The notes under the pieces were generated by a model. It saw only the letters and a program-made list of their open reading frames with translations, was not told the DNA's origin and searched no databases. From the NCBI GenBank assembly GCA_027486255.1, contig JAIXPL010000056.1:1-64000 (forward strand): DNA of 64,000 nt. The letters run 5' to 3'. Positions 510 to 55,204 of the stretch are shown here, piece by piece; position 1 is the stretch's first letter, and each line of letters starts with the position of its first letter. A program made the position numbers and the translations under genes. The DNA comes from Comamonadaceae bacterium. GTDB lineage: Bacteria; Pseudomonadota; Gammaproteobacteria; Burkholderiales; Burkholderiaceae_C.

Positions 510-1889
510 TTATTTGGCGGTGGTGGCCAGGAATTCGGCGAGCAGGTCCTGCACCTTGCGGGTCGTGGCCTCTTCGCGTTCTGCACCGAGCAGGTGATCC
601 GTGGCCACGAAAGCCAGCGCAGCCTTCTGCCCGAAGGCGGCCAGGGCTTTGGGGTCATCGAAGGCGCCTGGGGGTACCTTCACCACGATCTCGCTGGCAT
701 AGGTGCGGGTCGGTCCGGCGGTCGTCAGCCTCGGTACCTCGGGGCGGCGGCCCTCCTGCACGTCATGAATGGCCTGGGACAGCATGCGTCGGAACTGCAC
801 CACGCCGCGGTCGGTGGAGCCCAGGTGCTCGGCCCGCCGATTGGCCACTTGGCCCTGGGTCACCACGGCGTCATAGTCACCGGGCTCGCGCTGGCGTTCG
901 GCATGGGGCCGGTCACCGGTTTGCCCGATGAAGGGGATCTGGTCCACGCCAAAGTCCTCGGGCGCCATGCCGCCGCTGGGGTTGTTGTAGCTGTTGAGGT
1001 GAGCCAGCCCGATGTAGAAGGAGTTGTGGTCGTCCACCGCCACCGCCCACCGCGACAGGTAGGGCCGCAGACCCAGGCTCTCGCTGTCGGCCAGGTTGGC
1101 GCCGTTGGGAAACTGCCCGAAGTTGGGCAGGGCGATATCGCTGGCACGGATGAAGACATGCTCACCCACCCGGCGCGTAGCCATGGACAGGAAGCCGATC
1201 GGCGTGCGTGGGAAGTCCAGTTGCGGCAAGACCTTGAAGGTGACCGAAAACTGCTGGCCTGCCACGATGGCGTGAAGGTAAGCGTTGTGGATGGGGTCGC
1301 AGCCGTTTTCTACGATCTGCACCCAGTTGCAAGGCAGGTTCATGCGGAACGGAACCGGCACATTGTCCGTCGGGTGGTCAACGGTGTCGTACTCGGGGAA
1401 GGGCGGCATCTCGTCCACCGGCCCCATGTAGGCAAAGAGCAGGCCCTTCCATTCATGCACCTTATAGGCGCCTTGGCAGAAGGTGCTTTTGATGCGGATG
1501 GTCGGCGGCTCTGCGGGGGTGTCGAGGATGGTGCCATCCACATCAAAGTGCCAGCCGTGGTAGCAGCAGCGGATGCCGCGTTCGGCAATGATGCCGTACT
1601 CCAGCGAGGCACCGCGGTGAATGCAGTGGCGGTGCAGCAGACCGATGCGCCCTGAGCCGTCGCGAAAGACCACCAGGTCCTCGCCCAGCAGGCGCACGGG
1701 CACAGGCAGGTCCCCGAGCTCCGAGCTCAGAAGGAAGGGATGCCAGTAGCGGCGCAGGTACTCCCCGCCTGGCGTGCCTCGCCCAACAGACGTGATGAAG
1801 GTGTCATCGTTGGGTGCGGGCTGGTTGTGGTAACCGCTGTAAGGCCGGATGTCCCGGCCCGGGCGAGACCCGGAAGTGGAATCGGTCAT
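510..1889 (-). CDS. Rieske non-haem iron oxygenase, alpha subunit
   Basis: A 459-residue aromatic ring-hydroxylating oxygenase alpha subunit of the phthalate-dioxygenase-like type. The Rieske [2Fe-2S] ligands are visible as C89-x-H91 and C108-x2-H111. The mononuclear iron motif follows as NGCDPIHNAYLH, with D198, H201 and H206. A GGAGG site precedes the ATG at 1889. No ferredoxin or reductase is encoded in the window, so electron transfer must come from a partner elsewhere or beyond the left edge. It is divergent from a TetR-type regulator and sits over a repeat-rich intergenic region. Family is certain; substrate is unknown. Confidence 0.9.
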   Translation of the reverse strand: MTDSTSGSRPGRDIRPYSGYHNQPAPNDDTFITSVGRGTPGGEYLRRYWHPFLLSSELGDLPVPVRLLGEDLVVFRDGSGRIGLLHRHCIHRGASLEYGIIAERGIRCCYHGWHFDVDGTILDTPAEPPTIRIKSTFCQGAYKVHEWKGLLFAYMGPVDEMPPFPEYDTVDHPTDNVPVPFRMNLPCNWVQIVENGCDPIHNAYLHAIVAGQQFSVTFKVLPQLDFPRTPIGFLSMATRRVGEHVFIRASDIALPNFGQFPNGANLADSESLGLRPYLSRWAVAVDDHNSFYIGLAHLNSYNNPSGGMAPEDFGVDQIPFIGQTGDRPHAERQREPGDYDAVVTQGQVANRRAEHLGSTDRGVVQFRRMLSQAIHDVQEGRRPEVPRLTTAGPTRTYASEIVVKVPPGAFDDPKALAAFGQKAALAFVATDHLLGAEREEATTRKVQDLLAEFLATTAK

Positions 1890-2018: not shown

Positions 2019-2060
2019 TAGATTTCGCCCATGCTTCATTCAGCGTCCGGGCGCAAGCCC

Positions 2061-2768
2061 ATGTCCAAAGGCAAGAGCCTGCCCATCGAGCGCTCTCGCG
2101 GAGAGCTGGCGCGGCAGGCGCTCATCGAAGCGGGCGTGCAGGTCTTTGGCAGCCAAAGCCTCAATACCGCATCGACACGGGAGATCGCCCGCTGCGCGGG
2201 CCAGAACGTTGCGGCCATTGCGTATTACTTCGGTAGCAAGCAAGGGCTGTACGAGGCGGTGGTGGCGCACATTGCCGGCATCATCGATGCGCGGGTCGGC
2301 CCATTGATGGACGAGATCGCCGCTTACCTGGCCGGCCGGCATGTGGCGCCCGAGCGCTGCCTGCAGTACATGGGTGAACTGCTGGCCAGCACACTGGCCA
2401 CGCACACCGACATGCTTCCTGTGACCAGCATCATCATCAAGGAGCAGATGGAGCCCACCGAGGCCTTTGACATCCTCTATGACGGTGCGCTGGGGCAGTT
2501 GCAGGCCACGGGCGCCGCCCTGCTAGAGGCCTACTGCGGCCTGCCGGCCCAGGCGCCCGAGACCATCGTGCGTTTTCACGCCTTGCTGGGCCAAAGCCTG
2601 GCCTTTCGCTTTGCCCGCCAGACCATCATCCGGCGCGCCGGATGGCGCGACATCGGGCCTGCGCAGGAGCAGCTCATCAGCCACGCTGTGATCGACCAGA
2701 CCCAAGCCGTCCTGCGCAGCCTGCGGCGCCAGCACCTTCGCAAGTCGCCCACGCGCACGCTGCGCTGA
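2061..2768 (+). CDS. TetR/AcrR family regulator with CerR-type C-terminal domain
   Basis: About 235 residues. An N-terminal TetR helix-turn-helix is visible (ARQALIEAGVQVFG, then TREIARCAGQNVAAIAYYFG), with the YYF signature at the end of the recognition helix. The C-terminal part (KEQMEPTEAFDILYDG) matches the CerR/DUF1956 ligand domain. ATG at 2061 is chosen; ATG at 2031 would add ten residues and has no clear ribosome binding site. It is divergent from the Rieske operon and upstream of the Bug/FAH operon, so it probably represses one or both in response to the pathway substrate. Confidence 0.85.
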   Translation: MSKGKSLPIERSRGELARQALIEAGVQVFGSQSLNTASTREIARCAGQNVAAIAYYFGSKQGLYEAVVAHIAGIIDARVGPLMDEIAAYLAGRHVAPERCLQYMGELLASTLATHTDMLPVTSIIIKEQMEPTEAFDILYDGALGQLQATGAALLEAYCGLPAQAPETIVRFHALLGQSLAFRFARQTIIRRAGWRDIGPAQEQLISHAVIDQTQAVLRSLRRQHLRKSPTRTLR

Positions 2769-2805: not shown

Positions 2806-3777
2806 ATGAAACTGAATCGACGCCTGTTGAGCATCCTGCTGGCCCTGCCTTTGCTGGCCAGTGCGCAGCAGGCCCAAAATTATCCGAACCGCACCATCCG
2901 CCTGGTGGTGCCCTATGCGGCGGGTGGGGCCGGGGACAGCGTGGCCAGACCGCTGGCCCAGCGCCTGAGCGAGATCCTTGGCCAGCCCGTGATCGTGGAC
3001 AACAAGCCTGGAGCCAATGCCACGCTGGGGGCCGACCAGGTGGCCAAGGCCGCCCCCGACGGCTACACCATCGTGCTCGCTGCCGTGGTGCACTACATCG
3101 TGCCGCTCTTTTCCAAGAACGTGCCCTACGACCCCATTCGGGACTTCACGCCCATTGCACCGGTGGTGGTGACGCCCAACATCCTGGCCGTGCATCCGTC
3201 GCTGCCGGTCAACAACACCCGCGAGCTCATCGACTACGCCAAGAAAAACCCGGGCAAGCTGTTCTACGGCACCACCGGCGTGGGCTCCACCCACCACCTG
3301 GGTGGCATTTTGTTTTCGCAGATGGCCGGAATCCAGATGGACCATGCGCCTTACAAAGGCGGGAGCCCGACGATCAACGACGCCCTGGGCGGCCAGATCC
3401 CGGTGGTGATCCTGACCTCGCCGACGGTTCTTCCGCATGCGCGGGCCGGCCGCCTGCGGCCCATCGGCATGATCGAGACCAAGCGGGCACGCGCCACACC
3501 CGACATCCCCGCGCTCGGGGAAGCATTGCCTGGTTACGGCCTGCCCGACACCTGGTTCGGCGTGCTGGGGCCAGCCAACATGCCCAAGGCCGTGGCCGAT
3601 CGCCTGAATGCGGCCATTCGCCAGGCCACGGCCGATCCCGACCTGCGTGCCCGCCTGGAAAAAGCGGGGTACGAAATGAGCGCCTCCATGAGCCCGGAGG
3701 AATTTGGCAGCTCCATCCGCAGCGATGCCGAGGTCTTCCGCCGCATCGTCACATCCGCTGGCATCAAGCCCGAGTGA
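2806..3777 (+). CDS. Bug family (tripartite tricarboxylate) solute-binding protein
   Basis: A 323-residue periplasmic receptor with a Sec signal peptide (basic MKLNRR, hydrophobic core, cleavage near ASA-QQ). Bug hallmarks are YPNRTIRLVVPYAAGG, NKPGANATLG, APDGYT and PYKGG. These proteins bind carboxylated ligands and normally deliver them to TctA/TctB, but no TctA or TctB gene occurs in this window. A GAGGAGACACGC ribosome binding region precedes the ATG. It leads the FAH/SBP-like/SDR operon and probably recognises a substrate of that pathway. Confidence 0.92.
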   Translation: MKLNRRLLSILLALPLLASAQQAQNYPNRTIRLVVPYAAGGAGDSVARPLAQRLSEILGQPVIVDNKPGANATLGADQVAKAAPDGYTIVLAAVVHYIVPLFSKNVPYDPIRDFTPIAPVVVTPNILAVHPSLPVNNTRELIDYAKKNPGKLFYGTTGVGSTHHLGGILFSQMAGIQMDHAPYKGGSPTINDALGGQIPVVILTSPTVLPHARAGRLRPIGMIETKRARATPDIPALGEALPGYGLPDTWFGVLGPANMPKAVADRLNAAIRQATADPDLRARLEKAGYEMSASMSPEEFGSSIRSDAEVFRRIVTSAGIKPE

Positions 3778-3809: not shown

Positions 3810-4793
3810 ATGAAACTCGCCACTTATCTGGATCCACAGGGCCAGCAGCGCATCGGGGCCGTGGACACGGCCAGCCGCAGCGTTCTCGACCTGCAGGCGG
3901 CCCATGTGCAGCAGCACGGCCGCCCCAGCCCGCACCTGGGCAGCATGCTCGACCTCATTGATGGCGGTGAACCTGCCCTGGCCCTGGCGCGCGAGCTCGA
4001 ACGTCAGAGCGCCGGCGCAGGGCCCCATCGCCATGCACTGGAGGGCCTTCGCCTGCTGGCCCCTGTGCCGCAGCCGCGCCAGATCCGGGACTTCAACAAC
4101 GCCGAGGACCACTGGCGCGACGCCTTCGGGGGCATGACCATCCTCTCGGCCCGGCTGGCCGGGCAGACGCCACTGCCGCGCGACCAGATCAAGGTGGACA
4201 TTCCCGAGGTCAACTACACCCAGCCGATCTTCTACATCAGCAACCGCATGAATGTGGTCGGCACCGACACCGACATTCAGTGGCCGCGCTACTGCCAGTG
4301 GTTCGACTACGAGGCCGAGTTCGGCTTCTTCCTCGGGCGCACGGGCAAGGACATTTCAGAGAAGGATGCCGCCAGCTACATCTTCGGCTACACGGTGTTC
4401 AACGACTTTTCGGCGCGCGACAAGCAAATCCGCGAGATGCAGGGAAAGATGGGGCCGACCAAGGGCAAGAGCTTTGACACCGGCAACGCCATGGGCCCCT
4501 GGATCGTCACCTGCGACGAGATTCCCGACCCGCGCAAGCTGGCCGTGGAAATTCGCGTCAACGGCGAGGTCTGGAAGAACACCAGCAGCGCATCGATGGT
4601 CCACAGTTTCGAGAAGATGATCGCCTATGTGTCGGAGTGCGAGACGCTTTATGCCGGCGAGTTTTTCGGCTCGGGCACCATGGCCGGTGGCTGCTGTCTG
4701 GAGATCGATCGCTGGCTCAAGGACGGCGACGTGGTGGAGATCGAATTTGAAAAGATCGGCACCTTGCGCAACCGCGTCGTGCGCACCGCCTGA
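3810..4793 (+). CDS. Fumarylacetoacetate hydrolase (FAH) family protein
   Basis: A 327-residue FAH-fold protein. The conserved C-terminal domain contains DYEAEFGFFLGR, YTVFNDFSARDKQ, KGKSFDTGNAMGPW and GDVVEIEFEKIGTLRN, with the acidic divalent-metal ligands of the family. FAH-superfamily enzymes hydrolyse C-C bonds in acylpyruvates, or hydrate or decarboxylate 2-oxo intermediates from aromatic ring cleavage. It lies 32 bp after the Bug gene. With the divergent Rieske oxygenase and the downstream SDR it fits a ring-degradation route. The exact reaction is not determinable. Confidence 0.88.
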   Translation: MKLATYLDPQGQQRIGAVDTASRSVLDLQAAHVQQHGRPSPHLGSMLDLIDGGEPALALARELERQSAGAGPHRHALEGLRLLAPVPQPRQIRDFNNAEDHWRDAFGGMTILSARLAGQTPLPRDQIKVDIPEVNYTQPIFYISNRMNVVGTDTDIQWPRYCQWFDYEAEFGFFLGRTGKDISEKDAASYIFGYTVFNDFSARDKQIREMQGKMGPTKGKSFDTGNAMGPWIVTCDEIPDPRKLAVEIRVNGEVWKNTSSASMVHSFEKMIAYVSECETLYAGEFFGSGTMAGGCCLEIDRWLKDGDVVEIEFEKIGTLRNRVVRTA

Positions 4794-4826: not shown

Positions 4827-5564
4827 ATGCCCTACGACATCCATGCGGCCCGCCGCGAACTGACCCCCACCGGTACCCTGCGTGTCGGCCTGAACCTGGC
4901 CAACTTTTTGCTGATCAACCCGGGCACGGGCCAGACCAAGCCCGAAGGCATCGTGCCCGATCTTGCGCAGGAACTGGCGCAGGAGCTGGGCGTGTCCTTG
5001 CAGTTCGTGCCCTACGCAGCCCCCGGCCCACTGGGTGATGCCGTGGATCAGGGCGCCTGGGACGTGGCCTTTCTGGCCGACGAACCCGCGCGCGCTGCCA
5101 CCATCGCCTTTTCGCCGGCCTATCTGGAAATCCAGGCCAGCTACCTGGTGCCGGCCGGTTCGCCCTTCACTCATGTGGACGAGGTGGACAGGGCCGGCGT
5201 GCGCATTGCCTCCATGGATGGCGGCGCCTACACGCTGTACCTGCAGCGCAATCTGTCGCAGGCGCAACTGGTGCTCACGCGCACCATCGACGACTCTTGT
5301 ACCGCGTTCGTCGATCAGGGCCTGGAGGCCTTGGCCGGTCTGCGGCCGCGGCTGATCAGCGACCAGGCCAAGGTACCCGGCAGTGTGCTGCTGCCAGGCG
5401 GGTTCACGGCGGTGCAGCAGGCCATAGGTACCTCCCGTCGCCACCAGGCGGCGCCCGCCTACCTGGCAGATTTTTCAGAGCGCGCCAAGGCGCAGGGCCG
5501 CGTGCAGGCTGCCATCGACAGGCATCGCATCCTGGGTGTGAACGTGGCTCCGGCAAGGGCCTGA
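4827..5564 (+). CDS. SBP_bac_3-like solute-binding protein lacking a signal peptide
   Basis: A 245-residue protein with the fold-start and hinge patterns of amino-acid-type (family 3) binding proteins: GTLRVGLNLANFLL, GIVPDLAQELAQELG, AWDVAFLADEPARA and FSPAYLEIQASYLVP. There is no hydrophobic leader. The first strand begins at about residue 16, and the stop of the FAH gene is in the same frame 11 codons upstream, so the N-terminus cannot be extended. It is therefore predicted cytoplasmic. No ABC permease or ATPase of this class is nearby. It could be a ligand sensor, a ligand chaperone or an enzyme built on the fold, such as a cyclohexadienyl-dehydratase relative. Confidence 0.8.
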   Translation: MPYDIHAARRELTPTGTLRVGLNLANFLLINPGTGQTKPEGIVPDLAQELAQELGVSLQFVPYAAPGPLGDAVDQGAWDVAFLADEPARAATIAFSPAYLEIQASYLVPAGSPFTHVDEVDRAGVRIASMDGGAYTLYLQRNLSQAQLVLTRTIDDSCTAFVDQGLEALAGLRPRLISDQAKVPGSVLLPGGFTAVQQAIGTSRRHQAAPAYLADFSERAKAQGRVQAAIDRHRILGVNVAPARA

Positions 5565-5586
5565 GTTGCAGGAACGGAGCTCAGAC

Positions 5587-6333
5587 ATGAACAAAAATGT
5601 ACTCGTCACAGGTGGCAGCCGCGGCATTGGCGCGGCCACCGCCCGCTTGTTGGCCAGCCAAGGTTGGCGGGTGTGCATCAATTTCGTCAGCCAGGTCGAG
5701 GCCGCGCAGGCGGTGGTCGATGACATCTCCCGTGCCGGTGGGCAGGCCCTCATGGTGGCTGCCGATGTGGCCCAGCCCGATCAGGTGCAGCGCATGTTCG
5801 AATTCATCGACCACGAGATGGGCGTGCTGCATGGCCTGGTCAATAACGCGGGGGTGATCGCGCCCATGATTCGGTTCGAGGACATGGAGCCGGCGCGCTG
5901 GAACCGCATCCTGGGCACCAATTTGCTGGGGACCATGATGTGTGCGCATGCTGCGGTGCGCCGCATGTCGACCCGCCATGGCGGGGCCGGTGGGGCCATC
6001 GTCAACCTGTCGACTGCGCTCACCCGCTCGGGCGCGCCGGGCATGTACGTGGACTATGCCGCGGCCAAGTCGGCGATCGAGACCCTGACGGTGGGCCTGG
6101 CACGCGAGGTGGCGGGCGATGGCATCCGGGTCAACTGCGTGCGGCCGGGGCTTATCGACACCGAGATTCACGCCTCAGGCGGAGATCCGGGCCGGGCGGC
6201 CAAGGCCAAGGATTTTGTTCCCCTCAAGCGGGCCGGCCTGGCCACCGAGGTGGCGCAGGCCATCGCCTGGCTCCTGTCGGAGCAGGCTTCCTACACCACG
6301 GGCGGTTTCATCGACGTCTCCGGAGGCGTCTGA
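5587..6333 (+). CDS. SDR family NAD(P)-dependent oxidoreductase
   Basis: A 248-residue classical short-chain dehydrogenase. The Rossmann motif TGGSRGIG is at residues 8-15, NNAG follows in LVNNAGVIAPM, and the catalytic pair is Y157/K161 in YAAAK, preceded by NLSTA. The ATG at 5587 is chosen over an upstream TTG at 5566 because a GGAACGGAGC site precedes it. It is last in the operon begun by the Bug gene and probably oxidises or reduces a hydroxyl or keto group of a pathway intermediate. Confidence 0.88.
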   Translation: MNKNVLVTGGSRGIGAATARLLASQGWRVCINFVSQVEAAQAVVDDISRAGGQALMVAADVAQPDQVQRMFEFIDHEMGVLHGLVNNAGVIAPMIRFEDMEPARWNRILGTNLLGTMMCAHAAVRRMSTRHGGAGGAIVNLSTALTRSGAPGMYVDYAAAKSAIETLTVGLAREVAGDGIRVNCVRPGLIDTEIHASGGDPGRAAKAKDFVPLKRAGLATEVAQAIAWLLSEQASYTTGGFIDVSGGV

Positions 6334-10616: not shown

Positions 10617-11492
10617 ATGGAAATCGTTTACCTCCTTGAGCAGATCGTCAATGGTATTGTCCTTGGCGGCTATTACTTGCTGCTGGCACTGGGGCTGTCG
10701 CTGATTTTCAGCGTTGGCGGCATCGTTAACCTTTCCCATGGCGCGTTCTATGCGCTGGGTGCCTACCTGTCGCTGGAGGTGATCAAACTGGCGGGTTTTG
10801 GTGCGAGCATCTTCGTGACGCCCTTGCTGGTTGGCCTTCTTGGCATTCTTTTTGAGCGTTACCTTCTGCGCCGCTTCTACACGGCCGACCCTATCCTCAG
10901 TCTTCTCGTGACCTTTGGCCTGGCCATGGTGGCCGAGCAGACACTGCGCTTGATTTGGGGTTCGGCACCGTTGCCCTCCAGCATGCCAGCGGGCTTCAAG
11001 GGCAACGTCATGCTCGGTGAAGTCATGCTCTCCAAGTACCGACTGTTCATTCTTGGGGTGGTGATCGTGGTCATGAGTGGCATCTGGCTGCTGCTGCACA
11101 AGACGGCTTTTGGGCGTGTCGTGCGCGCGGGAGTGCAAAAGCCTGACATGGTGGCCGTGCTGGGCATTCGACTGCAGCCTTACATGACGGCCATCGTGAT
11201 GCTCGGCGTGGCCACCGCAGCGCTGGGCGGTGTCCTGTTCGGGCCGATCGCCATCGTGCATCCGGCCATGGGCACCGAGATCATGACCGTGGCATTCGTG
11301 GTGGTGGTGATCGGTGGCCTGGGCAGCTTTTGGGGCGTGGTGCTCGCCGCCCTCCTGGTGGGCGTGGTGCGCGGGATCACCACGCACTTTGTGCCCGCGG
11401 CCAGTGAAGCCTCCATGTACATCCTGATGTTTCTGGTGTTGATGCTGCGCCCCCGCGGTTTGTTGGGTGAGCGCATTGAGCGATTCGAGTGA
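10617..11492 (+). CDS. Branched-chain-type ABC transporter permease (LivH-like)
   Basis: A 291-residue integral membrane permease. The N-terminus MEIVYLLEQIVNGIVLGGYYLL and the motif LSHGAFYALGAYLSL are hallmarks of LivH proteins. About eight hydrophobic segments follow, with the EAA-like loop (GRVVRAGVQKPDMVAVLGI) near residue 175. The start at 10617 is chosen because an upstream in-frame start would lie inside the hairpin at 10565-10591. It pairs with the permease domain of the fused gene that follows 22 bp later. Confidence 0.92.
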   Translation: MEIVYLLEQIVNGIVLGGYYLLLALGLSLIFSVGGIVNLSHGAFYALGAYLSLEVIKLAGFGASIFVTPLLVGLLGILFERYLLRRFYTADPILSLLVTFGLAMVAEQTLRLIWGSAPLPSSMPAGFKGNVMLGEVMLSKYRLFILGVVIVVMSGIWLLLHKTAFGRVVRAGVQKPDMVAVLGIRLQPYMTAIVMLGVATAALGGVLFGPIAIVHPAMGTEIMTVAFVVVVIGGLGSFWGVVLAALLVGVVRGITTHFVPAASEASMYILMFLVLMLRPRGLLGERIERFE

Positions 11493-11514
11493 CAACCGGA
11501 AGAAGACAACAAAA

Positions 11515-14049
11515 ATGAATGCTCGTCTGAATCCTCACTACCGGCCCTTGTGGATCGGTGCGGCCAGTCTGGTGCTGCTGCCCCTGGTATTTCAGGCCAT
11601 CGGCCTGACGCTGGATGCCGCCACGGTGGTGGTCATCCTGGCCATGGCGGCCATGGGGCTGAACCTGCTGGTGGGCTACACCGGCTTGGTGTCATTCGGT
11701 CACAGCGCCTGGTTCGGCATTGGTGGCTATGCGGCCGCGCTCGCCCAGCTGCACTGGTTCAAGGACCAGATCGTCCTGCCATTTGCCTTTTCGCTGCTGT
11801 TCACCGCCGTGCTGTCGCTGGTGGTGGGGGTCTTGATTCTGCGGCGCCGCGGGGTGTACTTTTCCTTGCTGACACTGGCGCTGTGTGCGCTGACCTTTGC
11901 CATCTCCTTTCGCTGGACCAGCCTGACCGGCGGGGAGGGTGGGCTTGGCGGCATTGAGCGAGGCTCGATAGGCCCCATCGATCTGAACGGCCACCTGACT
12001 TATTACGTCTTCACCGCCCTGATCGGTTTTTCCGTCCTGTACATCCTGCTGCGCATCGTGCGTTCGCCCTTCGGCCATGTGCTGGTGGCCATCCGCGAGA
12101 ACCAGCAGCGCGCCACCTTCCAGGGTTACGACATCGACCGCTACAAGTTGCTGGCATTCGTGATCTCCGCCACCATCACGGGCTTGGCTGGGGCGCTGGT
12201 GGTGTTTCTGCACCGGTTGGCTGCTGCGGAGTCCACCACGGTGGCGTTTTCGGGCGAACTGCTCGCCATGGTGGTCATCGGCGGCATGCACAGCTTCCTG
12301 GGCCCGGCCCTGGGTGCGTTGTTTTTCCTGCTCTTTCGCGAGCTCTTTTCAATCTACACCGACAACTGGCTGCTTTACTTCGGCCTCATCTTTGTCGGCT
12401 TCATCATTTTCTCGCCGGCTGGTCTCTCCGGTATCTGGGCCAAGGTTCAGCGGCGTCTGCGTCCCCCGCCCGAGGACGACGCGGCCATGAGCAAGCGAAA
12501 GATCTACGAAGGACTGCCCCTGCCAGAATTCCTGCGGCCACAACGCATTGAAGGGGTGGTGCTGGAGGCGCAGGGCATCAGCAAGAGTTTCGGCGGCATC
12601 CAGGCTGTGCGCGAGAACACCGTGCGGGTGGAAGCCGGCCAGATTCATGCGCTGATCGGCCCCAACGGCGCGGGAAAGACCACGACCTTCAACCTGATCT
12701 CAGGCATGTTCACGCCCGACTCTGGAACCGTTCGCCTGCATGGGCGTGAGATCCAGAACCTGTCGCCAGACCGCATCTGCCAGCAGGGCTTGGCGCGCTC
12801 TTTCCAGATCACGAATCTGTTCAAGGGCCTGAGCATCAATGAAAACATCCGCTTGTCTCTGCAGGCGCGTCATCCCGCACGGTTTAATTTCTGGCGAGAC
12901 ATCGATTCATTCCCCGAGGTTCATACCGAGACCGCCGAGCTGATGAAGTTTCTGGGCCTGCAGGGCATGGAGCAAGTCGGCGGTGGCGATCTGTCTTACG
13001 GTGGCCAGCGCCTGGTGGATCTGGGCATCGCCCTGGGTTCCAAGCCGCAAGTGCTGCTGATGGACGAGCCTCTGGCTGGCCTGGCAGCGGCCGAGAGAGA
13101 ACGCGTCTCGCGCCTGGTGAGCACCATCGCCAGCAACATACCAGTGTTCATCGTTGAGCACGACATTGACCGTGTGCTCTCGCTCTCGCACTGCGTCACC
13201 GTGATGAATCAGGGTGAGGTTCTCATGAGTGGCTCACCCGAGCAGGTTCGCAATGACGCGCGCGTGCAGGAGGTCTACACCGGTACCGGCCGCCCACCCG
13301 TGACGGGCCGCTCGACGCAGGCGGCAGGCGAGCGCAGGCTGGTGCTGGACTTCGACCAAGTCAACGCGTACTACGGCAAAAGCCACATCCTCAACAGCGC
13401 CAGCCTGCAGGTGCGCGAAGGTGAGATCGTGGCCCTGCTGGGTCGCAACGGTGCCGGCAAATCCACGCTGCTCAAGAGCCTGATCGGCCTGGTGCCGCCT
13501 GCAAGCGGTCGGGTGGTCTTCAATGGCCGCGATGTGGCCGGACTTGGAGCGCCGGACATCGCGCGCGCCGGCATTGGCTACGTGCCACAGGGTAGGGGTC
13601 TTTTTGCCGGCATGTCGGTGCGTGAAAACCTGGCCCTCGGTCGGCTCGCGCGGCCGACCGATGGCAAGACGGGAGTCGTATGGAACGAGGCGATGATCCT
13701 GGAATTTTTCCCTCGCCTGAGGGAGCGCATGGACGTTGCTGCCGACTACCTCTCCGGCGGCGAGCAACAGATGGTTGCGGTGGCGCGTGCGCTGTCGGGA
13801 AACGTCAAGTTGCTGCTGCTCGACGAGCCTTTCGAGGGCCTGGCACCCACCGTGGTGCAGGAGTTGTTCACCGCCTTCGACAAGCTGCGTCAGCACATCT
13901 CCATCATCATCGTGGAGCACAACCTGGATCTGGTGCTGGCACTGGCTGATCGGGTTTATGCGCTCGAGCGTGGTGCAGTCTTCCATGAAGGTGCAGCCGA
14001 GCCGCTGCTCACCGATCTGGATTACCGCAAGAAAATCCTGTGGCTGTGA
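11515..14049 (+). CDS. Fused LivM-LivG-LivF: permease plus two ABC ATPases in one polypeptide
   Basis: About 844 residues. Residues 1-320 are a LivM permease (MGLNLLVGYTGLVSFGHSAW, multiple membrane spans). A charged linker (about 321-345) leads to a LivG ATPase with Walker A GPNGAGKT near 382, signature LSYGGQ and Walker B VLLMDEPLAGLA. A second ATPase of LivF type follows, with Walker A GRNGAGKS near 643, signature LSGGEQQ near 746 and Walker B LLLLDEPFEGLAP. Both ATPases look intact. ATG 11515 (GGAAGAAG upstream) is preferred over 11467, which overlaps LivH. With LivH it would form a complete transporter from two membrane chains. Confidence 0.93.
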   Translation: MNARLNPHYRPLWIGAASLVLLPLVFQAIGLTLDAATVVVILAMAAMGLNLLVGYTGLVSFGHSAWFGIGGYAAALAQLHWFKDQIVLPFAFSLLFTAVLSLVVGVLILRRRGVYFSLLTLALCALTFAISFRWTSLTGGEGGLGGIERGSIGPIDLNGHLTYYVFTALIGFSVLYILLRIVRSPFGHVLVAIRENQQRATFQGYDIDRYKLLAFVISATITGLAGALVVFLHRLAAAESTTVAFSGELLAMVVIGGMHSFLGPALGALFFLLFRELFSIYTDNWLLYFGLIFVGFIIFSPAGLSGIWAKVQRRLRPPPEDDAAMSKRKIYEGLPLPEFLRPQRIEGVVLEAQGISKSFGGIQAVRENTVRVEAGQIHALIGPNGAGKTTTFNLISGMFTPDSGTVRLHGREIQNLSPDRICQQGLARSFQITNLFKGLSINENIRLSLQARHPARFNFWRDIDSFPEVHTETAELMKFLGLQGMEQVGGGDLSYGGQRLVDLGIALGSKPQVLLMDEPLAGLAAAERERVSRLVSTIASNIPVFIVEHDIDRVLSLSHCVTVMNQGEVLMSGSPEQVRNDARVQEVYTGTGRPPVTGRSTQAAGERRLVLDFDQVNAYYGKSHILNSASLQVREGEIVALLGRNGAGKSTLLKSLIGLVPPASGRVVFNGRDVAGLGAPDIARAGIGYVPQGRGLFAGMSVRENLALGRLARPTDGKTGVVWNEAMILEFFPRLRERMDVAADYLSGGEQQMVAVARALSGNVKLLLLDEPFEGLAPTVVQELFTAFDKLRQHISIIIVEHNLDLVLALADRVYALERGAVFHEGAAEPLLTDLDYRKKILWL

Positions 14050-14092: not shown

Positions 14093-14485
14093 ATGATCAT
14101 GAAGAAACAGCAAGACCTGCGTTTGCTCGTGGAGAAAATGGCCCACCTTCCCTGGCAGCAGTACCCAGGCCATTTTGGCGGCGCCTTGTCCAAGGAGCTG
14201 GCGGGACCGGGCACCACGGGCAGTTCCAGGATGGACTTTCGCATTTCACGCTACGCACCGATGGCCTATGTGCAGGAGCATGTGCACCAGATTCAGGAGC
14301 AGGTGTATTACGTGCTGGAAGGCGAGGGCATGCTCACGCTGGACGATGACAAGCATCTGATGCGGCCGCACGACTACGTCTACGTGCCGCCCGGTGTGCG
14401 CCACAGCTTCACCAACACCGGCACCAATGGCCTGGTCTTTTTGGTCATCACCACGCCTGTCTCCGACGAAGAGGAGGCTCGCTGA
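14093..14485 (+). CDS. Cupin domain protein
   Basis: A 130-residue single-domain cupin. The metal motifs are recognisable: HVHQIQEQVYYVLEGEG gives the first motif (H-x-H with E), and PHDYVYVPPGVRHSFTNTG gives the second, with its histidine. An alternative ATG lies two codons downstream (14099) behind GGACTGGA. Small cupins in catabolic operons act as isomerases, dioxygenases or ligand-binding accessory proteins. Its stop overlaps the aldehyde dehydrogenase start by one base, so translation is coupled. Confidence 0.85.
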   Translation: MIMKKQQDLRLLVEKMAHLPWQQYPGHFGGALSKELAGPGTTGSSRMDFRISRYAPMAYVQEHVHQIQEQVYYVLEGEGMLTLDDDKHLMRPHDYVYVPPGVRHSFTNTGTNGLVFLVITTPVSDEEEAR

Positions 14486-15942
14486 TGCTGCCCTCAGTCG
14501 CTGCCATGCTCAATGCGGGGGATTCCCCCACGTGCGGCTTGCTCATCGATGGCGTCTGGACCGAAGGCGCTGGACCGCGCGTGGTGGTGCGCGACAAATT
14601 CAAGCTCCAGCCCTGCGCCAGCCTGACGACGCCTGACCAAGCGCAATTGCGTCAGGCGATCGACGTGGCGCACAGGGCGTTTCGGACGGGTGCGCCAGTG
14701 GCCTACGAGCGCGGTCTCATTCTGGACCGCGCCGCTCAATTGCTCGATACACGGGCTGCCGAATTCGTCTCGATCATGCAGATTGAGGCCGGCTTCACAC
14801 ACAACGATGCGCTGGGCGAAGTGCGTCGCTGCATGCAGACGCTCAGGCTCTCCGCGGAGGAAGCCCGCCGGCTGGCTGGCGAGGTGATTCCGCTGGCTGG
14901 CGCCCCAGGTGCTGCCGGCCGAATGGGCTTCACCATGCGCGTGCCGCTGGGCGTGGTGGCGGCCATCACCCCTTTCAATTCGCCGCTCAATACGGTGGCG
15001 CACAAGGTGGGTCCAGCCTTTGCCGCTGGCAACTCGGTGATCCTCAAGCCATCGACGCACACCCCCATGACCGCGTGCTTGCTGGCCGAGGTCTTGCTCG
15101 CAGCGGGCCTGCCCCCGGGGTTCCTCGCCGTCTTGCACGGCAGCGGCGAGGTGGTTCGCCAATTGCAGGCCGATGAGCGCGTGCGCTTTTTCGCCTTCAC
15201 GGGAAGCACCGAGGTGGGCCGCCAGATTCAGCAGACCGCGGGTCTGCGCCGCACCCAGATGGAGCTTGGCTCGATCGCCTGCACCCTGATCTGCGACGAT
15301 GCCAACCTGGAGCTGGCGCTGCCCAAGGTCATCAATGCGGGCTACCGCAAGGCTGGCCAGGTCTGCACGTCCGTGCAGCTGCTGCTGGTGCATGAATCCC
15401 GGCAGGCCGAGGTCGAAAGCCGTCTGAGCACCATGGTTCAGGCGCTGGTGTATGGTGACCCGCAGGGGTCAGACACCTTTGTCGGTCCGCTGATCAGCGA
15501 GGAAAGCGCCATCCGCATTGAGTCCTGGATCACGGAGGCGCTGGCACAAGGTGCCAGGCGTCTGGCGGGTGGGCCGCGCCAGGGCGCGGTGCTGCCGCCC
15601 ACGCTCCTGACCGACATCCGGGATGACATGCAGGTCAGCTGCCAGGAGATCTTCGGGCCCGTGGTGTGCATCCTGCCCTTCAAGACCTTGTCCGAAGCCA
15701 TTGCCAGGGTCAACGCCTCCCCCTTCGGACTGGCTGCTGGTGTGTTCACCAACCGCCTGGCCGACGCCCTGGCTGCTGCCCAGCAGCTCGAAGTCGGTGG
15801 GGTGCATATCAACGAGACTTCAAGCTCTCGCGTCGATCTCATGCCCTATGGCGGCTCGAAGGACAGTGGTTTCGGCCGGGAGGGCCCTCATTACGCCGTC
15901 CAGGAGATGACCGAAGAGCGCATCGTCACCATCACCACTTGA
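14485..15942 (+). CDS. NAD(P)-dependent aldehyde dehydrogenase family protein
   Basis: A 485-residue ALDH. The cofactor-binding region contains ITPFNSPLNTVAHKVGPAFAAGNSVILKPS and FTGSTEVGRQIQ. The general base is E260 (MELGS) and the catalytic nucleophile is C294 (GQVCTSVQ). A C-terminal EIFGPVVCI motif is present. Both catalytic residues are intact, so it should oxidise an aldehyde to the acid (or acyl-CoA). It is translationally coupled to the cupin and followed by a ThDP enzyme, which could generate the aldehyde by decarboxylating a 2-oxo acid. Confidence 0.92.
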   Translation: MLPSVAAMLNAGDSPTCGLLIDGVWTEGAGPRVVVRDKFKLQPCASLTTPDQAQLRQAIDVAHRAFRTGAPVAYERGLILDRAAQLLDTRAAEFVSIMQIEAGFTHNDALGEVRRCMQTLRLSAEEARRLAGEVIPLAGAPGAAGRMGFTMRVPLGVVAAITPFNSPLNTVAHKVGPAFAAGNSVILKPSTHTPMTACLLAEVLLAAGLPPGFLAVLHGSGEVVRQLQADERVRFFAFTGSTEVGRQIQQTAGLRRTQMELGSIACTLICDDANLELALPKVINAGYRKAGQVCTSVQLLLVHESRQAEVESRLSTMVQALVYGDPQGSDTFVGPLISEESAIRIESWITEALAQGARRLAGGPRQGAVLPPTLLTDIRDDMQVSCQEIFGPVVCILPFKTLSEAIARVNASPFGLAAGVFTNRLADALAAAQQLEVGGVHINETSSSRVDLMPYGGSKDSGFGREGPHYAVQEMTEERIVTITT

Positions 15943-15968
15943 TCGTCCCCTTACAAGAAGAGACACCC

Positions 15969-17747: not shown

Positions 17748-17777
17748 TTTGACTCGCTTCGATCACAAGGAAACCCC

Positions 17778-18500
17778 ATGACTTCAAAGATTGCATTGGT
17801 ATTCGGCGGCACGCGCGGCATCGGTGCGGCCTGCGTCCAAAAACTGGCAGAAGATGGCTACGACGTGGCCTACACCTATGTGAGTAGCGCCCCTGGCCTA
17901 CCCGCGAAAATCGGTGATTCACGCACCCGTGGCTACTCGGTCGACATCTGTGATGCCGCGCAGGTCGAGCAGGTGTTCGCTGATGTGGCACGTGACTTTG
18001 GCGCCAAGCCCTCTTGCGTGTTGGCCAACGCCGGCATCAATGTGCCGCCCGGACCCCTGGGCCAGTTTGATCCGGCCAACTTCCGCCGCTTGGTGGAGGT
18101 CAACATCGTTGGCGCTTTCAATGTGCTCAGCGCTGCAGCCCGCCATGTGGCCGACGGAGGCAGCATCATCGGCTTGACTACTTCCATGGTGCGCGTGGGC
18201 ATTCCCGGCGTCGGCCCCTACACGGCGACCAAGGCTGCGGTCGAGAGCCTGCTGCGATCGCTGGCCAAGGAAGTGGCCGGACGCAAGGTCCGGGTCAACG
18301 GTGTGGCCCCCGGTCCGGTGGATACCGACTTGTTCCGCGCTGGCAAAAATGAGGAGGCACTGGCCCGTTCGGCTGCACTGAGCCCCTTCAATCGCGTGGG
18401 ACAGCCTGCGGAGGTGGCCGAGGTGGTGGCCTTCCTGGCTTCCGAAAAAGCCTCCTGGGTGCATGGCCAGATCATCCAGCCCAACGGCGGCATGGTCTAA
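17778..18500 (+). CDS. SDR family oxidoreductase
   Basis: A 240-residue short-chain dehydrogenase. The nucleotide-binding motif is FGGTRGIGAA near residue 10, followed by LANAGINVPPGPLG, LTTSMVRVG and the active-site YTATKAA. The C-terminus AEVVAFLASEKASWVHGQI is typical of FabG-like members. A CAAGGAAACCCC site precedes the start. It is part of the operon with the ThDP enzyme upstream and the signal-less binding protein 12 bp downstream. Confidence 0.9.
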   Translation: MTSKIALVFGGTRGIGAACVQKLAEDGYDVAYTYVSSAPGLPAKIGDSRTRGYSVDICDAAQVEQVFADVARDFGAKPSCVLANAGINVPPGPLGQFDPANFRRLVEVNIVGAFNVLSAAARHVADGGSIIGLTTSMVRVGIPGVGPYTATKAAVESLLRSLAKEVAGRKVRVNGVAPGPVDTDLFRAGKNEEALARSAALSPFNRVGQPAEVAEVVAFLASEKASWVHGQIIQPNGGMV

Positions 18501-18512
18501 AGGCCGCCTGTC

Positions 18513-19409
18513 ATGCGCCTGGCGGTCTTCACCAAAAACTTCAGCAACCCAGCCTATGGTGCGGCCCGATTGGGCGCCGAACGCGCGGCTGCGGTGTTTG
18601 GGGACGAGGTACTTCACTTCGTGCCGCAAAAGGGGGACGATCCCGTCGAGCAAAGCGCACTGGTCATTCAGGCCCTGGCCCTGCGGCCACGGCCCGATGC
18701 CTTTGTGCTTTCACCGGTGCACCCGACACAGGTGGACGCAGCCATTGGCCAGGTGGTTTCTGCGGGCATTCCGATGATTGGCTTTGTCAATCCCATCGAT
18801 GCCGCGCCCATGGTGAGCTACGTCAGCTCCGACGATTTTCAGCTGGCCCAGGCGATTGCAGAGCACCTGTTCAGGCACCTGCAGGGGCAGGGCCGCGTGT
18901 GGGTGGTCACCGGGCCTGTGGATTCCTACACCAGCCTGGAGCGACTGCGTGGCTTCCAGTCGGTGGCGCGGCAGTGGCCTGGCATCACCTTGGAACGCCA
19001 GTTCGCGGGTGATTACCGACGTGATGTCGCGTGCCAGGGCATGGCGGCGCATTTGGCTGCCCATCCCACGCCGCACGCCGTGCTGGCAGCCAACGACATC
19101 ATGGCCATTGGCGTGCTCGACGCGCTCGATGCAGCCTCTCAAAGCGCCGTGGTGGTGGGGGTCAATGCCATTCCCCAAGCCGTGGAGGCCATCGCCGCTG
19201 GCCGTATGCTGGCCACAGCCGACTTCAATGCCATGCAGATGGCCTACCTGGCGGCTGAATGCGCGGCTCGTCACCTGCGTGGACAGGCTGTGCCGGCTCG
19301 CATCGAGCTGCCGGTGACGATCGTCGATCGCCGCAATTGCACGCACTGGAACCTACCCTATGAGCAACGCCCCGTGATCGGGCTGGATCAACTCAGGAGC
19401 ATCCAATGA
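18513..19409 (+). CDS. Type-1 (sugar-binding-like) periplasmic-fold protein lacking a signal peptide
   Basis: 298 residues of the RbsB/LacI-C-like binding fold: MRLAVFTKNFSNPAYGAARLGA, PDAFVLSPVHPTQVDAAIGQVVSAG, VWVVTGPVDSYTSLERLRGF and AVLAANDIMAIGVLDALDA. The first strand starts at residue 1, so there is no export signal and no DNA-binding domain. The preceding SDR stop is in frame only four codons upstream, excluding an extended leader. The gene overlaps the next Bug gene by ATGA, coupling their translation. Probably a cytoplasmic ligand-binding protein of unknown role. Confidence 0.82.
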   Translation: MRLAVFTKNFSNPAYGAARLGAERAAAVFGDEVLHFVPQKGDDPVEQSALVIQALALRPRPDAFVLSPVHPTQVDAAIGQVVSAGIPMIGFVNPIDAAPMVSYVSSDDFQLAQAIAEHLFRHLQGQGRVWVVTGPVDSYTSLERLRGFQSVARQWPGITLERQFAGDYRRDVACQGMAAHLAAHPTPHAVLAANDIMAIGVLDALDAASQSAVVVGVNAIPQAVEAIAAGRMLATADFNAMQMAYLAAECAARHLRGQAVPARIELPVTIVDRRNCTHWNLPYEQRPVIGLDQLRSIQ

Positions 19410-20377
19410 AACGCACTCTGATCAAGGGCCTGGCGCTTTGTGCTGCCTTGGCCTTGGGCCTGCCGGCGGCGCACGCCCAGGACTACCCCAATCGCCCCCT
19501 CCGTATCGTGGCCCCGTTTGCGCCTGGTGGCGCCGTCGATATCCTGGCACGCCTGATTTCCGAGGGACTGACCCAAGCCTATGGGCAAAGCGTGGTGGTG
19601 GACAACAAGCCCGGCGCCAGCGGTCACCTGGGGGCGCAACTGGTGGCCAAGGCGCCGCCAGACGGCTATACCCTGCTGCTTGGCACCATTGGCATACACG
19701 CCGCCCATGCGAGCTACAGCAAGTTAATCTACAAACCCGCCACCGAACTGCAGCCCATTATGGTGGTCGGTGAAAGTCCCAATGTGGTCGTGGTGCCCGC
19801 CAATTCCAAGTACAAGACCTTTGCCGATTTTCTGGCCGATGCGCGTGCCAACCCCGCCAAGATCAACTACGCCAGCGCCGGTGCCGGCTCTTCAGTGCAC
19901 ATGGTGACGGAGCTGTTCCAGCTGGCGATTGGTCAGCGCATGAACCACGTGCCCTACAAGGGCAGCAGCCCGGCCTTGGTGGACCTCATCAGTGGCCAGG
20001 TCGACGTGATGTTCGACAACTTGTCCTCCAGCATGCCCCTGGTGCAGGCCGGCAAATTGCGTGCCCTGGCTGTCACGGGCACGCAGCGCGATCCACGCAT
20101 GCCGCAGGTGCCGACCGTCGCCGAAGCGGGCGTGCCAGGCTACAGCGGCACCTCTTGGTTCACCCTGGCAGCGCCTGCGGGCATGCCCGCGGCCTTGGTG
20201 GACAAGCTCAATCGGGATGTGAACAAGCTGCTCTCCAGCCCCGAGGTGGCCAGCCGTTACCAGCAGCTGGGCATGGGCTATGTGCCCAATTCAGCGGCTC
20301 AGGCCCAGGCTTTCTTTCGCAGCGAGACCATCAAGTGGAATCGTGTGATCGAGGCCGCCAAGATCCAGCTCGATTGA
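19406..20377 (+). CDS. Bug family (tripartite tricarboxylate) solute-binding protein
   Basis: A 323-residue receptor with a clear Sec signal (MKRTLIKGLALCAALALGLPAAHAQ). Motifs are YPNRPLRIVAPFAPGGAVD, VDNKPGASGHLG, PPDGYT and VPYKGSSPALVD. The start codon lies inside the stop of the signal-less binding-protein gene (ATGA). It is immediately followed by a second Bug gene of similar length, making a tandem receptor pair. No TctA/TctB gene accompanies it. Confidence 0.93.
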   Translation: MKRTLIKGLALCAALALGLPAAHAQDYPNRPLRIVAPFAPGGAVDILARLISEGLTQAYGQSVVVDNKPGASGHLGAQLVAKAPPDGYTLLLGTIGIHAAHASYSKLIYKPATELQPIMVVGESPNVVVVPANSKYKTFADFLADARANPAKINYASAGAGSSVHMVTELFQLAIGQRMNHVPYKGSSPALVDLISGQVDVMFDNLSSSMPLVQAGKLRALAVTGTQRDPRMPQVPTVAEAGVPGYSGTSWFTLAAPAGMPAALVDKLNRDVNKLLSSPEVASRYQQLGMGYVPNSAAQAQAFFRSETIKWNRVIEAAKIQLD

Positions 20378-20395
20378 ACTGACCGGGACTTCACC

Positions 20396-21364: not shown

Positions 21365-21371
21365 GCGGACC

Positions 21372-22838: not shown

Positions 22839-22898
22839 GTGCGGCCATGAATGTCGTGTGCGGCACGCAAAGATCTTTTTCCAATTAACGGAGTTGAA

Positions 22899-53061: not shown

Positions 53062-54042
53062 ATGCAACGCTTGCGCCGCATCTGCACACTCACCGCCCTG
53101 TCTGCTCTGGGTCTGGCCGCCACGGGCTGGCAGCCTGTCCAGGCCCAGGCCTATCCCGTCAGGCCCGTGACCCTCGTCTTGCCCTTCTCAGCCGGGGGCA
53201 CCGCCGACATCCTGACCCGGGCCATGGCTCCGGCCCTGTCCACCGCCTTTGGCCAGAACGTGGTGATTGAGAACAGGGTGGGCGCCAATGGGGCCATCGG
53301 TGAGGAGTTTGTTGCCCGTTCCAAGCCCGATGGCTACACGGTGATGATCACTTCCACCTCGATCGCCACCAACCCCTGGATGACGACCCTGAGCTACGAC
53401 CCGCGCAAGGCCTTCATTCCCGTCATGCTCATCACCTCGGTGCCCCTGGTGCTGGCGGTGAACCCGCAGGTCAAGGCGCAGACGGCGCGCGACTTTGTGG
53501 AGCTGGCCCGTCGCCAGAGCGGTGGCCTGAACTACTCCTCCTGGGGCAATGGCAGCATCGGCCACTTCGCCGGCGAGAACCTGCAGCTCACCTCCCAGGT
53601 CAAGCTCAACCACGTGCCCTACAAGTCCACCGCGCAGGCGCTCAATGACACGCTGGCCGGCCAGGTCGATGCCATGTTCCCCACGCTGCCGCTGGCGCTG
53701 CAGCACATCAAGGCGGGCAAGCTGCGGGCGCTGGGCCTGACTTCGCCGAACCGCTCGCCGCTGGCGCCCGAGATTCCGACCATGGCCGAAGCAGGTCTGC
53801 CGGGTAACGAGATTGAAACCTGGTTCGGCGTGTTCCTGCCCACCGGCACCGACCCGGCCATCGTGCAGCGGGTCTACCGTACCTTCCAGTCGGTGCTGCA
53901 GCAGCCCGAGATGAAGACCCGGCTCGAGGGCCAGGGCTTTCGCGTGATCGCCAGTTCCTCCGACGAATTCGCCAAGTTCCTGGCCTCCCAGACCGAGTGG
54001 TACGGCCGCGTGGTCAAGCAGGCCAATATCAAGGGCGACTGA
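53062..54042 (+). CDS. Bug family (tripartite tricarboxylate) solute-binding protein
   Basis: 326 residues with signal peptide (LSALGLAATGWQPVQAQA). Motifs are YPVRPVTLVLPFSAGGTAD, ENRVGANGAIG, KPDGYT and VPYKSTAQALND (PYKS in place of PYKG). AAGAGGAGACATCC gives a strong ribosome binding site. It leads the operon of catabolic enzymes up to 61783 and is followed 16 bp later by a signal-less DctP-like gene. Confidence 0.92.
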   Translation: MQRLRRICTLTALSALGLAATGWQPVQAQAYPVRPVTLVLPFSAGGTADILTRAMAPALSTAFGQNVVIENRVGANGAIGEEFVARSKPDGYTVMITSTSIATNPWMTTLSYDPRKAFIPVMLITSVPLVLAVNPQVKAQTARDFVELARRQSGGLNYSSWGNGSIGHFAGENLQLTSQVKLNHVPYKSTAQALNDTLAGQVDAMFPTLPLALQHIKAGKLRALGLTSPNRSPLAPEIPTMAEAGLPGNEIETWFGVFLPTGTDPAIVQRVYRTFQSVLQQPEMKTRLEGQGFRVIASSSDEFAKFLASQTEWYGRVVKQANIKGD

Positions 54043-54058: not shown

Positions 54059-55204
54059 ATGAATCCACTTCAGATCGGCGGCAACGACACGCCGGGGCAG
54101 GTTGTTGCCAAAACCAGCCTGGCTCGTCAGTGGCTGCAGGCGCCAGAGCCTGCGGCGCGCACACCCGAGACCGTGCTGCGCGTGAGTGCGCACATCCCTC
54201 AAGCCTCGCCGGCGGTGCAAGACGTCTTCGTGCCCGCCTTCCGGCGCCTGGCCCAGATGTCGGACGGTGCCATCGGCGTGCAAGCCACCTGGGGCGGCGC
54301 GCTGCACGCTGAGCGCGAGGGCATCCAGGCCTTGCGCCAGGACCTCACCGACCTCTGCCCGGTGTACTCCGCCTGGGACCCGCGCATGTTCCCGGCCGCC
54401 CAGGCCCTGAGCCTGCCTTTCCTGTTTGGCAGTGCCGAGGCCGCCACCCATGTCTCGGAGTCGCTGTACCGGCGGCATTTTTCCCGAGACTTCGAGGCCC
54501 AGGGCGTCCTGATGGGGCGCATGGTGGCCACCAGCGAATACAACCTTTTCAGCCGCCAGCCGATTGCCAGCCTGGCTGACCTGCAGGGCCTGCGCGTGGC
54601 CTGCAGCGACGGCCTGGAGGCCCAGCTCTTTGCCGCTTTGGGCGCCGAGCCCGTGGGCTGCAGCACCCCCGAGGCCAAGCAGCGCTTTGCCCAGAAGGAC
54701 GTGGCCGCCGTTTCCATCTCCGACAGCGCCGCCTTCACCGTGGGCCTGTTTCGCGATGCGGCTTACCGCACCCAGGCCAACCTGGCGCGGGTCAACCTCG
54801 AATACGGCCTCTCGCCGCATTTCTTTGGCCGCTTGCCCTTGCACCTGCGGCCCGTGCTCAACCGCTGGCTGCGTGGTCTGGCCCAGGCTGGGGCGCAGCT
54901 GTTTTATGGCCTGGCCGGTGCGCAAGCGCGGCAGGCCTTTACCGAGGCGGGCCTGCAGTCGATCGAGCTTGATGCGGCCGAGACCGAGCGCTGGCGTGCG
55001 CGCCTGGCACCGGTGCAGGCAAGGCTTCGCGATGAACTGATTGGCGCGGGCCTGCCGGCTGATGCGCTTCTGGCCGACCTGCAGCGCGAGGCCGAGGCCT
55101 GCGCCGGCTGGCGCAGCGACCAGTTCATGGCCCATGCTCTGGAGCATCCCTTCGAGGACCTGCTCCCCATGAATGCCCCTGCCGGTGCAGGAGGAGCCGC
55201 ATGA
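54059..55204 (+). CDS. TRAP DctP-like solute-binding protein lacking a signal peptide
   Basis: 381 residues. The DctP-fold pattern is clear: LRVSAHIPQASPAVQDVFVPAFRRLA, GALHAEREGIQALRQDLTDLCPVY, ALSLPFLFGSAEAATHVSESLY and LADLQGLRVACSDG. The N-terminal 40 residues are polar, and the 29 in-frame codons upstream contain no ATG, GTG or TTG, so no leader exists. No TRAP membrane subunits are nearby. A cytoplasmic ligand-binding role in the operon is inferred. It overlaps the next gene by ATGA. Confidence 0.82.
   Translation: MNPLQIGGNDTPGQVVAKTSLARQWLQAPEPAARTPETVLRVSAHIPQASPAVQDVFVPAFRRLAQMSDGAIGVQATWGGALHAEREGIQALRQDLTDLCPVYSAWDPRMFPAAQALSLPFLFGSAEAATHVSESLYRRHFSRDFEAQGVLMGRMVATSEYNLFSRQPIASLADLQGLRVACSDGLEAQLFAALGAEPVGCSTPEAKQRFAQKDVAAVSISDSAAFTVGLFRDAAYRTQANLARVNLEYGLSPHFFGRLPLHLRPVLNRWLRGLAQAGAQLFYGLAGAQARQAFTEAGLQSIELDAAETERWRARLAPVQARLRDELIGAGLPADALLADLQREAEACAGWRSDQFMAHALEHPFEDLLPMNAPAGAGGAA

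Follow-up and report, generated by a model that had tools for sequence, protein, structure and literature searches.

A mostly leaderless family of SBP_bac_3-fold proteins in Burkholderiales, with a possible cytosolic role in carboxylate metabolism

Background

By profile, the nearest solved relatives of the protein described here are the ancestral and modern cyclohexadienyl dehydratases (AncCDT and PheC/CDT; best PDB matches, 7.4e-28), which, like the family considered below, have the receptor fold without a transporter. The available part of PMC7683729 describes ancestral work on this same fold, in which binding proteins turn into enzymes, and cites MqnD among the SBP-fold enzymes that exist; as a receptor fold turned enzyme, MqnD resembles what is proposed for the present family. 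A class of cytosolic single-domain proteins that are caught by SBP Pfam profiles is noted in PMC9602780, and our protein looks like one of these; in the part of that paper available to us, the account of such proteins includes neither the present family nor a change of compartment.

The window analysed here is a stretch of 64,000 nucleotides from a Comamonadaceae bacterium (contig JAIXPL010000056.1), and the gene under study occupies positions 4827 to 5564. An initial annotation had proposed that its product is a cytoplasmic ligand-binding partner of a neighbouring Bug (TctC-type) receptor, and the first of three independent recruitments of this kind in the window. The reading that we prefer, at a probability of about one half, is that of a cytosolic, mostly leaderless SBP_bac_3-fold family, which would handle carboxylates, may be enzymatic and would have Bug genes as neighbours only by virtue of a shared pathway.

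The focal gene and its operon

The focal gene and its surroundings contain the following features:

510..1889, minus strand: Rieske oxygenase with a LigXa-type C-terminus, upstream of the operon on the opposite strand (PF00355, 6.2e-16; PF19301, 2e-13)
2031..2768, plus strand: TetR/CecR-type regulator, upstream of the operon (PF09209, 2.1e-17; PF00440, 1.2e-10)
2806..3777, plus strand: Bug/TctC receptor with a Sec-like leader, two genes upstream of the focal gene (PF03401, 2e-67; leader core hydrophobicity 2.67)
3810..4793, plus strand: FAA_hydrolase, an enzyme of the fumarylacetoacetate-hydrolase superfamily (FAH), directly upstream of the focal gene (PF01557, 2.3e-57)
4827..5564, plus strand: focal gene, leaderless SBP_bac_3-fold protein of 245 aa with an in-frame stop upstream (PF00497, 1.2e-11)
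5566..6333, plus strand: short-chain dehydrogenase (SDR), starting at the TTG at 5566 or later at 5587 (PF13561, 6.3e-54)

As initially described, the genes for Bug, FAH, the focal protein and SDR follow one another on one strand with short gaps (32, 33 and then 1 or 22 bp), and Pfam detects no ABC permease or ATPase among these four operon genes. The FAH protein gives HpaG-like domain matches in NCBIfam that lie below the curated cut-offs. The source genome is a metagenome-assembled genome (MAG) of 2.66 Mb, 89.9% complete, in which the focal gene is present in one copy.

The assignment of the focal protein to SBP_bac_3 holds as well, with a score of 44.9 bits against PF00497 where the curated cut-off is 26.4, and the same is true of its lack of a signal peptide. 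The FAH stop codon (4791-4793) is in frame with the ATG at 4827, 11 codons upstream, and no start codon lies between the two, so that a leader cannot be added in frame. A leader-like hydrophobic core was not found in the first 50 residues, and the best uncharged 10-mer (1.69, at residue 21) falls inside the domain. The Bug/TctC receptors differ from the focal family both in belonging to another Pfam family and in being leadered, the six that were measured in the window having hydrophobic cores of 1.75-2.67. The export leader of an ABC-transporter solute receptor is thus absent from the focal protein.

Elsewhere in the window, a single ORF of 860 aa (11467-14049) unites a branched-chain permease domain (BPD_transp_2) with two stretches of ABC ATPase; a Peripla_BP_6 receptor (9273) and a second permease (10617) are encoded beside it.

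Distribution and leader classes of the family

Homologues were sought in 399 Burkholderiales genomes (E<=1e-10), and 96 of these, the window's own included, contain a match. All matched places except the 8 weakest were taken with their flanks, together with two named MAG contigs and the window. Two short second matches (L097, L111) were left out and 3 of the 125 homologues are unclassified, which gives 122 classified sequences (119 from Burkholderiales genomes, the two MAG contigs and the window). Genes were called with a simple script of our own, and the leader classes were likewise assigned by our own rules, which consider possible starts, hydrophobic cores and lipoboxes; six calls were set by hand (five from Sec-like to leaderless and one to lipoprotein). 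According to these hydrophobicity and lipobox rules, 91 of the 122 sequences are leaderless, 24 are lipoproteins and 7 are Sec-like, and in 58 of the leaderless sequences a stop codon is located at most 40 codons upstream of the conserved block. Leaderlessness is a trait of the family and not a peculiarity of the window copy.

These counts also bear on whether the focal protein is simply an exported SBP, the leader of which was missed or was lost through a sequence error. Leadered homologues, which the initial annotation had named as a sign of a wrong start, do indeed exist (31/122), but the stop codon 11 codons upstream led us to reject a start error for the focal gene. The stops close to the conserved block in the 58 leaderless relatives argue in the same direction, as does an identical protein encoded in a Comamonadaceae MAG record, which may derive from the same organism, and we consider a start-site artefact to be the least credible of all the explanations discussed here.

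The family is also found beyond the Burkholderiales. A profile search spread over the phylum gave matches in 30 of 349 genomes, of which 17 belong to other orders. Among the seven loci from other orders with an examined N-terminus, six lack a leader and the seventh (L238) has a stretch resembling one. Plasmids contribute 110 matching records; from these, 18 regions were picked by hand and not at random, two of them from one species. None of the 18 homologues has a leader, and one is in frame with a dehydrogenase. Among the plasmid matches listed with a feature, the product is named as a transporter or an ABC substrate-binding protein, with a single exception, a dehydrogenase. Annotated members are for the most part called "transporter substrate-binding domain-containing protein", a label which is probably wrong for most of them and which misleads pathway reconstruction in Pseudomonadota. 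No description of this family was noticed in the open-access literature searched; the family is widespread and appears to be without a name.

The window copy departs from the family at some conserved residues (Arg187 to Val and Arg206 to His), and its branch in the tree is long (0.69). The branch length, together with the lack of a permease in the window operon, would suit a decaying and functionless remnant of an ABC transporter. On the other hand, dN/dS across 14 close pairs, 11 of them leaderless and 3 of lipoproteins, is about 0.04-0.26, which speaks against decay, and intact members occur beyond the Burkholderiales; we therefore regard a remnant as improbable.

In four homologues from genomes of about 2 Mb (L094, L100, L105 and L106), a conserved internal Met stands where the leaderless forms start, downstream of a hydrophobic leader, and the two starts could yield two locations. 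A gene near the focal-gene homologue of L053 (L053:3002-3691) codes for an SBP_bac_11 (ModA-type) protein of 229 aa with its domain beginning at residue 4; the protein is apparently leaderless and may represent another receptor fold without a leader. In Paracoccus marcusii KGP (L251:4054-5208), the family domain shares a reading frame with the end of an isopropylmalate-type dehydrogenase. This arrangement was set aside as evidence, since the dehydrogenase gene of KGP is split and the two genes are separate in the sister strain.

Pocket residues and relation to known SBP-fold proteins

The available part of PMC10520331 lists nine active-site residues of cyclohexadienyl dehydratase, and none of the nine is kept in the window protein (profile alignment, with the numbering carried over by us from the 5jos alignment). 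The dehydratase fusions that this part of the paper describes are exported, whereas most members of the present family are without a leader. At the position of the catalytic Glu (175), Glu occurs in only 4 of the 122 sequences. A cytoplasmic cyclohexadienyl or arogenate dehydratase, to which the best PDB relatives would otherwise point, was thus rejected on its active-site residues and is very improbable. Arogenate dehydratase activity had been named at the outset as an outcome that would overturn the binding-partner reading, and the pocket gives no indication of it.

The amino-acid receptors of ABC transporters, which belong to the same Pfam family, provide a second comparison. Arg89, which we take to be the carboxylate-binding Arg of SBP_bac_3, is kept in the focal protein and in 120 of the 122 rows, including 31 of 31 leadered rows. 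Position 172, which aligns with the amine-binding Asp of these receptors, is occupied by Leu or Val in 106 of the 122 sequences. The retention of Arg89 and the altered residue at position 172 together suggest a carboxylate as the ligand. Unlike the ABC receptors, the focal protein lacks a leader and an operon permease and is changed at the position of the amine-binding Asp. A structure prediction made from three sequences reached a pLDDT of 39.9 and was discarded.

Changes of compartment

In a quick, unrooted tree of the mature region (122 rows, with long-branch warnings), the leader label needs 14 changes, compared to an average of 28 for shuffled labels, and at least 8 of the 14 are forced by branches of high SH-aLRT. 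A strict subset, composed of the 58 leaderless sequences with a stop at most 40 codons upstream and the 24 lipoproteins, needs 10 changes versus 20.8 when shuffled. The leaders are polyphyletic across the family, and a single clade of the 31 leadered rows is rejected by an AU test that was run after seeing the tree (p 1.9e-46). The 14 changes and the rejection of a single clade indicate that the fold has switched compartment repeatedly. The leaderless and leadered groups nevertheless have conserved positions in common, with Gly41 and Asp121 present in all 122 sequences.

All 24 lipoprotein forms have Ala, Ser, Gly or Thr, and never Asp, directly after the lipobox Cys. Under the usual sorting rule for lipoproteins, a residue other than Asp in this position directs the protein to the outer membrane. 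The lipoprotein forms are accordingly predicted to be outer-membrane proteins, and they too would thereby be unlike ABC receptors.

At two loci, L055 and L059, a DUF1330 gene is followed by a tandem of one leaderless and one lipoprotein copy. The tandem copies (L055:4126-5682 and L059:4989-6563) precede a lactonase-type propeller gene, and in L055 there is a Bug gene in between.

A more far-reaching and only tentative proposal is that the family constitutes a new class of SBP-fold enzymes, which would act on unsaturated or 2-oxo di- or tricarboxylates and would be shuttled between cytoplasm and envelope by gain and loss of the leader, both forms being adjacent in some genomes (L055, L059). The family amounts to many natural gains or losses of a leader on one conserved protein, and is well suited to the question of what role a binding protein takes on once it is moved to another compartment.

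Association with Bug genes

The number of TctC candidates varies from 0 to 693 per genome in the first-look counts, which served as our baseline since no more than 39 candidates per genome were scored, and nearness to a Bug gene must therefore be weighed against this density. A Bug gene is found on the same strand within three genes in 18 of 68 loci, versus 7.0 expected (about 2.5-fold), and in 17 of 67 versus 7.2 when the window is left out; loci from one genus are not independent, and counted per genus the values are 5.9 versus 2.2 expected of 30. In the entire set, 28 of the 125 loci have such a neighbour. The frequency is equal for leaderless and leadered forms (21/91 and 7/31, respectively; Fisher p = 1.0), whereas a directly adjacent Bug gene on the same strand is more common beside leadered forms (6/31) than beside leaderless ones (5/91). 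Beside the latter, direct adjacency is not above expectation (3/49 versus 2.3). Eight of 50 genomes, all of them chosen as homologue-bearing, have no TctC match (one of the eight is only 68% complete), and 7 of the 8 homologues in these genomes are leaderless.

The enrichment beside Bug genes that the initial annotation anticipated is thus present within three genes, but it is modest and is not specific to the leaderless forms. The suggested role, that of a cytoplasmic, non-catalytic partner that receives, buffers or senses the substrate imported by Bug, fares less well. In addition to the enrichment, it could draw on a homologue in Paracoccus alcaliphilus that has catabolic genes on one side and, on the other, a TctC gene and then a permease gene, and on the second and third cases in the window, which directly adjoin Bug genes. 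Yet exported homologues are found near Bug genes just as often and next to them more often, some homologue-bearing genomes have no TctC match, and the enrichment of MmgE/PrpD (see below) exceeds that of Bug. On these grounds, a dedicated partnership of the focal protein with the neighbouring Bug receptor appears unlikely.

Other neighbours and proposed role

MmgE/PrpD genes are found on the same strand within three genes in 7 of 67 loci versus 0.67 expected, a baseline for which the MmgE/PrpD number in seven genomes was set by hand between matches and candidates; per genus, the values are 1.9 versus 0.17 expected of 30. Considering all loci, MmgE/PrpD accompanies 11 of the 91 leaderless forms and none of the 31 leadered ones, in three genera only (6, 3 and 2). 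The FMN-dependent dehydrogenases show a similar distribution within three genes (leaderless 10/91, leadered 0/31), for two genera (8 and 2) and without a baseline. An ABC ATPase lies on the same strand within three genes in 7 of the 125 loci, all of them leaderless and of different origins, again without a baseline. Among the operonic neighbours (92 of 122 analysed), TctC is the most common (9), followed by MmgE/PrpD, SDR, enoyl-CoA hydratase and ABC ATPase with 3 each; the 25 of 106 families listed for these neighbours include ABC_tran with 3 matches and BPD_transp_2 with 2.

In 11 of the 18 plasmid regions (counted by eye; two of the 18 already showed a dehydrogenase or aldolase label when they were picked), an IPMDH-type dehydrogenase, Ldh, PrpF, AcnA or HpaH/HpaI is encoded on the same strand within three genes; in the other 7 no such carboxylate enzyme is close by on that strand. 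Examples of the gene order are Ldh-IPMDH-SBP-TctC-permease-oxalomesaconate tautomerase in Paracoccus alcaliphilus, TctC-PrpF-SBP in Cupriavidus taiwanensis and MFS-SBP-AcnA in Pantoea. A similarity search beside the 125 loci revealed no AcnA, IPMDH, TcuA, HpaH or HpaI on the same strand within three genes, with PrpF in one locus and Ldh in two. Beyond MmgE/PrpD and the FMN-dependent dehydrogenase, the carboxylate theme therefore derives from the plasmid records.

This pattern of neighbours fits an intracellular role with carboxylates. The predominance of leaderless forms (91/122), the absence of leaders from the 18 plasmid homologues and the occurrence of MmgE/PrpD and FMN-dependent dehydrogenase genes beside leaderless forms only all argue for a cytosolic protein acting on di- or tricarboxylates, perhaps an enzyme. 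Judging from their sequences, the leaderless members should be located in the cytoplasm, where they would remain, and the SBP_bac_3 receptor fold would in them have left transport. The protein would often be co-produced with enzymes for the degradation of ring-cleavage products or of di- and tricarboxylates, and its most likely ligand is a carboxylate of this kind that has been taken up. Like other SBP-fold enzymes, it might catalyse a lyase, decarboxylase or isomerase reaction; our guess is that catalysis is somewhat likelier than mere binding. MqnD, too, is a cytosolic protein. The nearby Bug gene would feed the same pathway and not work with the SBP protein. In those lineages that have lipoprotein or Sec-like forms, the protein would act in the envelope, a switch that has happened many times. 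If catalytic, the family might account for steps still missing from pathways of ring cleavage and tricarboxylate metabolism.

The diversity of the neighbours speaks against this cytosolic carboxylate role, as does the fact that 57 of the 125 loci (contig ends included) have no same-strand neighbour within 120 bp. The ABC ATPase genes near 7 leaderless loci, the 7 plasmid regions that lack such an enzyme, the few genera behind the MmgE/PrpD and FMN-dependent dehydrogenase counts and the altered Arg187 and Arg206 of the window copy weigh on the same side. The figure of 57 loci counts equally against another account, in which the pathway has a cytosolic binding protein, independent of Bug, that buffers a metabolite or, as a sensor, acts on one of the operon's regulators or enzymes. 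Such a protein would retain the function of what is, after all, a binding-protein fold, and a GntR or LysR gene directly adjoins the SBP gene in three plasmid regions; we view it as possible, albeit doubtful.

Further leaderless receptor folds in the window

Two other pairs of a leaderless receptor-fold protein and a Bug receptor are encoded in the window:

18513..19409, plus strand: second case, leaderless Peripla_BP_4 protein, overlapping the Bug gene by 4 bp (PF13407, 4.6e-44)
19406..20377, plus strand: Bug/TctC receptor adjoining the second case (PF03401, 2.1e-75)
53062..54042, plus strand: Bug/TctC receptor directly upstream of the third case (PF03401, 4.8e-65)
54059..55204, plus strand: third case, leaderless DctP-like protein, 16 bp after the Bug gene (PF03480, 1.8e-21)

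Both proteins are leaderless as the initial annotation had them, with in-frame stops 4 codons upstream of the 18513 protein and 37 codons upstream of the 54059 protein, the latter with nothing hydrophobic in between. For the second case this appears in a wider group, since all seven of the full-length close homologues examined (L185-L191, 44-50% identity) are leaderless, and more distant ones are mostly leadered; of the homologues with wider context, 2 of 8 are beside a Bug gene. A further homologue, L192, is missing a central segment of about 50 residues, with its frame unchanged. The third protein is an orphan, with no relative above 27% identity among 250 genomes.

The proposal of three independent recruitments beside Bug genes can be kept only in a weaker form. 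The second case does represent a leaderless family, but the third stands isolated, and the source genome contains 73 TctC matches, 7 of them inside the window, which makes the coincidence weaker than it sounds. What recurs is not recruitment to Bug but that receptor folds encoded in catabolic operons have lost their leaders, as shown for two families. The L222 region (8.1-18.6 kb of G241:C12) resembles positions 14485-24317 of the window in its content of a TPP enzyme, two FAD proteins, a Bug receptor, a second TPP enzyme and an ALDH, and its copy of the 18513-type protein is shorter by about 50 internal residues.
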